64,000 nucleotides of DNA from NCBI RefSeq assembly GCF_964204645.1, contig NC_134030.1, forward strand, positions 8,244,278-8,308,277, read 5' to 3'. Shown here one piece after another: positions 22,507 to 23,839 of this stretch. The DNA is from Tubulanus polymorphus. Lineage: Eukaryota > Nemertea > Palaeonemertea > Tubulaniformes > Tubulanidae. A model generated the notes under the pieces. The model ran no database searches. It was not told the origin of the DNA and was given only the letters and a program-made list of their open reading frames with translations. The number at the start of each line of letters is the position of its first letter. The first letter of the stretch is position 1. A program made the translations under genes and the position numbers.

Positions 22507-22575
22507 ATGATATTCATCGCGTCGTTGGCTTTCTTTTTTGCTTTCACAGCGGAGGCTTCCAAAATCTCAAAAAAT
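22507..22575 (+). CDS. Secreted-protein exon 1, duplicate a (signal peptide)
   Basis: 23 codons, MIFIASLAFFFAFTAEASK to ISKN, donor AAT|GTGAGT, phase 0. This copy is the one next to the TATA-like box. Confidence 0.7.
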
Positions 22576-23839
22576 GTGAGTAAATAACGCTTAATTAAAC
22601 TTGTATACTTATTTTGTTTTTGACATCTGCGAATTTCACGACGTTGCCACTGGCACAGTTTTCAGATTTGAGTCAAAATTTTGAAGGAACGATAACCATC
22701 GAAGATGTGAGTAGAAATCAATATTTTCACATAAAATAATAAATTGCCATAGTACCTTGCGATAATTGTTACCATGATATTCATCGCGTCGTTGGCTTTC
22801 TTTTTTGCTTTCACAGCGGAGGCTTCCAAAATCTCAAAAAATGTGAGTAAATAACGCTTAATTAAACTTGTATACTTATTTTGTTTTTGACATCTGCGAA
22901 TTTCACGACGTTGCCACTGGCACAGTTTTCAGATTTGAGTCAAAATTTTGAAGGAACGATAACCATCGAAGATGTGAGTAGAAATCAATATTTTCAATTT
23001 TTTTTAAATAGAATAATTCCAAACAAAAACTAATGATGATCATTCCTTGTTCAAGCAATAAACGTTCTTCTTCACTTAACACAAATCTCATTAGCAAGGT
23101 AATTTTATAGACCATTTACTATGGGGGAGCGAACTACGGCAAAGCTAAAATAGAATACGATGGTGCAACAAAACGTTCCAAAATATCCGATATCAATCTT
23201 GAAAATTCGGTAGGCGTTAATTACAGACCAGCGCAAATAAATGATTTTAACGAGGTTAGTAGAGAGTTAAATGTAGAATATAGTAATGAAATCGAGCCAA
23301 CACTCAAATTACTGGAATTCGTTTTTTTAACTATAGGATGTCGCTTATACATTGGGTGACGGTGACGATACTTGTAAAAGGGATACTGATTTATTGCCGT
23401 GGTACAGTGATCTGAATAAACCATCGTCAGCCGGGCCATGTTCAACATCCGTTGATGGTAGCGAATGTTCTTTCGAATGGAAGAACGGAAAATGTAAAGC
23501 TTCGGGGAAACGGCGCTTCGTTTTTTTCCTTCTGATCGGGCAAAGCATATAATAGTTTTAATTTCTTTCCTCATGCAGATGAGTACAGACTGACGATGGA
23601 TACATCTACGGGTCTACCGATCGCTTCCGAAATAACGACGACGCAAGGCCAAGCATTCAATCTCTTCCAAAGAAATATCAGGTTTTGAGCGCTACATATT
23701 TTTCTTATCAAATATATACGCCATGTACTTGAATATACCCAAAACTGGGTGCTCTCTTCTTTCCAGATACCGCGTTGATAAAACTGGTAGCGATAGGATG
23801 TTGCAAATACCGTCTACTTGTGCCACGATCGATAATTAG
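22507..23839 (+). CDS. Novel small secreted protein with four mature cysteines (6 exons)
   Basis: Not recognised with confidence. Coding exons: 22774-22842 (or its twin 22507-22575), 22926-22973 (or 22659-22706), 23111-23254, 23337-23493, 23579-23681, 23767-23839. All introns are GT-AG and phases agree, giving 197 residues and a stop. Residues 1-17 are a classic signal peptide (MIFIASLAFFFAFTAEA), with an N-F-S sequon at 23. The mature part has GGANYGKAKIEYD, then cysteines at 100, 122, 131 and 192, enough for two disulfides. The alternating hydrophobic pattern and YD...KR spacing loosely recall ependymin/LolA-like lipid-binding folds, but this is only a guess. AATAAA follows the stop at 23841. 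None of the exons carries a long frame, so simple ORF calling misses the gene. Confidence 0.82.
22659..22706 (+). CDS. Secreted-protein exon 2, duplicate a
   Basis: 16 codons (FSDLSQNFEGTITIED), phase 0 at both ends. It could therefore be included together with its twin, adding 16 residues without a frameshift. Confidence 0.55.
22774..22842 (+). CDS. Secreted-protein exon 1, duplicate b (signal peptide)
   Basis: Identical to duplicate a. It could start the transcript if a promoter acts within copy 1. It lacks the intact TATAAAAT. Confidence 0.6.
22926..22973 (+). CDS. Secreted-protein exon 2, duplicate b
   Basis: Identical to duplicate a; acceptor TGGCACAG, donor GAT|GTGAGT, phase 0. Splices in frame to 23111. 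Confidence 0.65.
23111..23254 (+). CDS. Secreted-protein exon 3
   Basis: 48 codons beginning TIYYGGANYGKAKIEYDG and ending INDFNE, acceptor TTTTATAG, donor GAG|GTTAGT, phase 0 on both sides. Confidence 0.8.
23337..23493 (+). CDS. Secreted-protein exon 4 (three cysteines)
   Basis: Residues 88-139, with DTCKRDTD, GPCSTS and SECSFEW. The donor AAAT|GTAAAG (phase 1) was chosen because it joins exon 5 as a Tyr codon; reading on would give a long intronic tail. Confidence 0.78.
23579..23681 (+). CDS. Secreted-protein exon 5
   Basis: Residues 141-173 (EYRLTMDTSTGLPIASEI, then FNLFQRNI). Acceptor CATGCAG, donor ATCAG|GTTTTG, phase 2. Confidence 0.78.
23767..23839 (+). CDS. Secreted-protein exon 6 and stop
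   Basis: Residues 175-197, YRVDKTGSDRMLQIPSTC to ATIDN-stop, holding the fourth cysteine. Acceptor CTTTCCAG. AATAAATAAA begins 2 bases after the stop codon. Confidence 0.8.

Follow-up and report, generated by a model that had tools for sequence, protein, structure and literature searches.

A six-exon lophotrochozoan gene most likely encodes a divergent ependymin-related protein

Ependymin-related proteins (EPDRs; Pfam Ependymin, PF00811, including MERP/EPDR1) have a median length near 213 aa (PMC6280359) and, in the case of EPDR1 (PDB 6E7O, 6JLD), a structure with a deep hydrophobic groove (PMC6363788). Their most conserved disulfide, C113/C210 in human EPDR1, is 'seen in nearly all members', and the residues D70, R77, W151, P174, F191, and F204 are also described as conserved (PMC6363788); another frequent bond, which in human EPDR1 joins C42 and C172, corresponds to positions 23 and 148 of the published profile 1 (PMC6280359). 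A sponge EPDR carries carotenoids (PMC10470211), some EPDRs of the annelid Platynereis are under circalunar-clock regulation (PMC6377233), and EPDRs are known and often expanded in lophotrochozoans (PMC6280359). For ecdysozoans, PMC6280359 states that none were found; PMC6363788, on the other hand, lists arthropods among the carriers of some EPDR subgroups.

We have analysed a gene located in the window, the whole stretch of 64,000 nucleotides under study, and consider it very probable that it is a divergent, fast-changed EPDR gene of a lophotrochozoan animal. This affiliation is supported by the intact six-exon frame, by an exon/intron layout that other EPDR genes in this genome share, and by aligned residues that include the C113/C210-equivalent cysteines. 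An earlier note, made from the sequence alone, had presented the protein as undescribed and of no obvious family, a claim that finds no support: in all likelihood the protein belongs, as a divergent member, to a family already described. The faint ependymin/LolA resemblance that the note had also perceived was a good lead, borne out by exon layout and key residues. The elements of the locus are the following:

22463..22469, plus strand: TATAAAA, putative box-like element preceding the first start codon
22464..22729, plus strand: first copy of an exact tandem duplication, with exons 1 and 2 (266/266 bases identical)
22507..22575, plus strand: exon 1, with the signal-like N-terminus (model of the earlier note; alternative end 22579)
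22659..22706, plus strand: exon 2 (same model; alternative start 22666, giving intron phase 1, as in both EPDR paralogues)
22731..22996, plus strand: second copy of the duplication, with an extra base C at the junction, 22730
22774..22842, plus strand: exon 1, second copy
22926..22973, plus strand: exon 2, second copy
23111..23254, plus strand: exon 3, with the YDGATKR motif (splicing and MAFFT alignment)
23337..23493, plus strand: exon 4, with the C-x7-P-W lid and three of the four Cys (splicing and alignment)
23579..23681, plus strand: exon 5, with the conserved Pro, LPI (splicing and alignment)
23767..23839, plus strand: exon 6, with QIPSTC near the end and the stop TAG at 23837-23839 (splicing and alignment)
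23841..23850, plus strand: two overlapping AATAAA hexamers, starting at 23841 and 23845

Translation of the six exons joined at GT/AG borders, a check proposed in the earlier note, reproduces its 197-aa protein exactly, with a frame open up to the TAG, and confirms the six-exon gene as described. The four Cys announced for the mature part are all there in the spliced protein, and the first AATAAA does come right after the stop, one base past it. What had been called a textbook signal peptide can be retained as a signal-like N-terminus, MIFIASLAFFFAFTAEA-SKIS, whose first 17 residues look signal-peptide-like by eye. Intron phases in this 197-aa model are 0-0-0-1-2. Alternatively, a first intron with its donor after 22579 and its acceptor before 22666 leads to a protein of 196 aa and phases 1-0-0-1-2; by eye, the donor is weaker and the acceptor has a better T-rich tract. 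The surroundings of the gene comprise a tRNA-Ser(AGA) (22068-22149, plus strand) about 360 bases upstream, tRNA being all that Rfam matched in the window, an exon of an SLC6 sodium:neurotransmitter symporter in an open frame (11320-11625, minus strand; PF00209, E 2.4e-17), and a serine- and charge-rich open frame of 716 aa (29347-31497, plus strand) with no Pfam match up to E 0.1, which by eye appears to be a genuine long exon belonging to a larger gene.

An addition to the earlier note, which had missed it, is that exons 1 and 2 are doubled: the segment 22464-22729 is repeated at 22731-22996, with 266 of 266 bases identical and starts 267 bases apart. Each copy carries the first two exons with their start codon, together with the leader beside the TATA-like element, and the gene start can thus also be read at 22774. 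Because TATAAAA precedes copy 1 and CATAAAA (22730-22736) precedes copy 2, copy 1 is the likeliest place for transcription to start. The mRNA probably uses one copy of each exon. The perfect identity points either to a duplication that happened very recently or to an error of assembly, and the extra base at the junction favours a real event. Even with the EPDR assignment right, the locus might be a decaying pseudogene or the doubled exons an assembly artefact, a question on the state of the gene that we judged apart from its family. We hold this to be unlikely: two identical tandem copies are a pattern that assembly errors can produce, but the junction base, unexplained by either flank, is as in the end-joining of a real duplication, and exons 3-6 are intact and open, which speaks against a pseudogene. 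The doubled exons are probably a recent tandem duplication.

The genome itself indicates what kind of animal carries this gene. A homeobox search with an E limit of 1e-8 gives 26 matches, ten of them (L036, L027, L026, L028, L029, L030, L031, L034, L032, and L033) Hox-like and aligned on one strand of the contig that also holds the window (G000:C6:5318228-5634756). The frames of all ten were read; L034 and L032 show no visible homeodomain in their printed part, and among the other eight we found the post-homeodomain tails KELNKQ and IKELND, one KLNGP, and one Post2-like sequence. We take the UbdA peptide, the Lox5 parapeptide, and Post2 to be lophotrochozoan markers, and the animal is on these grounds a lophotrochozoan. 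A search of the assembly for the COX1 family gave no match, which is why the Hox genes, and not mitochondrial gene order, served to place the animal. As EPDRs are known in lophotrochozoans, their presence here is expected; it would be more surprising in an ecdysozoan, given the absence stated in PMC6280359.

Searched alone, the window protein is elusive. The profile-HMM check that had been proposed yielded no significant match, no Pfam family passing its cut-off with either the 197- or the 196-aa model, and PF00811 itself gave no row up to E 10 for either, in a search where HMMER filters may drop weak matches. No PDB chain matched up to E 10 and no relative appeared in viral contigs, these two sets making up the searches outside its own genome. 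Within its own 267.8-Mb genome, all eight matches up to E 10 fall inside its own locus, revealing no second similar copy; the qualification as a candidate lineage-specific factor may thus apply to this copy, the family itself being known. Below its cut-off, Pfam gave a weak hint to MucB_RseB, a LolA-fold family (E about 0.1). OMP_b-brl (E 0.066 with the 197-aa model) was rejected, being below its cut-off and unlisted for the 196-aa model, and a bacterial promoter scan was set aside because the gene is animal. A PDB profile search with three EPDR1s recovered those chains and one Kelch-like chain (E 1.4).

A PF00811 search of the same genome, by contrast with this Pfam-missed protein, recognised two genes; once spliced, their products reach 115.8 and 108.1 bits, the cut-off being 32.3:

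G000:C1:7384306-7385600, plus strand: paralogue A, PF00811 match, six exons, phases 1-0-0-1-2
G000:C4, 8507734 down to about 8505430, minus strand: paralogue B, PF00811 match, phases 1-0-0-1-2 (five exons computed, the sixth read from the DNA by eye)

Paralogue A possesses four Cys (22, 92, 151, and 189), fitting the published profile 1. The same search in 14 control genomes found none, a control that informs little since the eight named ones are prokaryotes. Both paralogues can be aligned with the window protein over its whole length and resemble its gene in the order and phases of their introns. In an intron-blind MAFFT alignment, the introns of the 196-aa form and of paralogue A occupy columns 25/25, 39/40, 88/88, 151/149, and 186/181. 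As the first intron of the 196-aa form was picked with the paralogue phases already known, the 197-aa model is the fairer test, and four of its five introns have the same phase as, and lie within five alignment columns of, those of the EPDR paralogue. When five introns were placed at random on the same alignment 400,000 times, four of them matched in 12 trials and all five in none, a rough probability because the null is simple, with uniform placement and assumed phase frequencies of 45, 30, and 25%. Such a match with a bona fide EPDR gene of this animal goes beyond chance, and a gene structure in common with same-genome EPDRs, our own standard for membership, was what we found.

Sequence comparison agrees with EPDR kinship, weakly and without by itself proving homology. 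The motif GGANYGKAKIEYD singled out in the earlier note contains the beginning of the EPDR stretch YD-x4-R (KIEYDGATKR). MAFFT, run on five proteins (the window protein, its two paralogues, and the human and frog EPDR1 parts), lines up YD-x4-R, C-x7-P-W, and P-x2-C near the C-terminus and gives 12 columns identical in all five (Y54, D55, R60, C99, W108, P115, G119, Y139, T147, P152, P188, and C191), with an overall identity of 19-22% between the window protein and the four EPDRs. The window protein has the C-x7-P-W spacing in common with human, frog, and paralogue A, whereas SW stands in place of PW in mouse and AW in paralogue B. Read by eye, the alignment keeps the equivalents of D70 and P174, has K at the R77 position with the neighbouring R75 kept, and L at the F204 position; W151 and F191 have no certain placement. 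With hhalign, the comparison to five EPDRs (A, B, and the human, mouse, and frog EPDR1 parts) gave P 0.0071 across the N-terminal half, a result equalled by 2 of 300 shuffles, with YD-x4-R and C-x7-P-W in the same register as in MAFFT. Against the three vertebrate EPDR1s alone it was not significant (P 0.15), with the C-x7-P-W stretch again in that register. Pairwise alignments to the human, mouse, and frog parts were equalled by 404, 261, and 413 of 2000 shuffles when local and by 76, 120, and 50 of 2000 with free end gaps, the frog one, the sole printed, being out of register; a plain HMM of the five EPDRs was equalled by 141 of the 4380 shuffles scored (5000 made). In sum of likenesses, the protein has about the family length (196-197 aa), the signal-like N-terminus, both central motifs, the Pro of the LPI stretch, and P-x2-C near the end, together with the exon layout; it differs in being missed by the Pfam model, in lacking the C42/C172 pair, and in having two new Cys.

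The protein could also belong to another LolA-fold group, for instance as a stand-alone protein related to the N-terminal domain of EPDR+cathepsin proteins instead of a single-domain EPDR, which we regard as quite improbable. The weak MucB_RseB match is in its favour, as is a Cys shortly before a Trp (SECSFEW), presumably reminiscent of the EPDR+cathepsin clade; however, exon layout and phases fit the single-domain EPDRs of this genome, in a comparison of the window gene with paralogues A and B. The LolA/VioE/RseB bacterial superfamily has the fold to be expected if the EPDR assignment is right (PMC6363788), and the match of the window protein to it is the sub-threshold RseB one. That this is an unrelated lineage-specific secreted protein, EPDR-like in its exon layout by chance, fits the lack of family and PDB matches and the weak sequence statistics but is highly improbable, as the intron match would occur about 3 times in 100,000 under the simple null and the motifs are in register by both hhalign and MAFFT.

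As a divergent EPDR, the window protein stands out by its cysteines. C99 and C191 align with C113/C210 of human EPDR1, being identical in the five proteins of the MAFFT alignment, and would form a disulfide. Neither Cys of the C42/C172-equivalent pair is present, and two new ones, nine residues apart at 121 and 130 of the 196-aa form, follow the lid. This pattern departs from the three EPDR profiles published in PMC6280359, where two Capitella EPDRs are also without two Cys, a precedent for such a loss. What is known of the EPDR family leads us to propose that the protein would enter the secretory pathway with cleavage after AEA, that its mature part of 179 aa would fold as an 11-strand LolA/EPDR half-barrel pinned by the C99-C191 disulfide, and that a lipid or other hydrophobic ligand would bind in the groove beneath the C-x7-P-W lid. 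The extra Cys 121 and 130 may clamp the stretch that follows the lid, replacing the lost C42-C172 bond. More speculatively, and as a rather doubtful proposal, the gene might represent a lineage-specific EPDR subfamily that traded the N-terminal anchor disulfide for a short disulfide loop behind the lid, so as to bind a different hydrophobic ligand, be it a pigment, a pheromone, or a lipid; its freshly duplicated exon pair near the promoter may give alternative N-termini.

Apart from two points, this is an ordinary gene. One is that fast-evolving EPDRs seem to escape profile searches while remaining recognisable by their gene structure, and the EPDR counts of lophotrochozoans may consequently be too low. 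The other is that, if the altered Cys pattern is real in relatives, it would serve as a natural experiment on how the lipid pocket keeps its lid in place.
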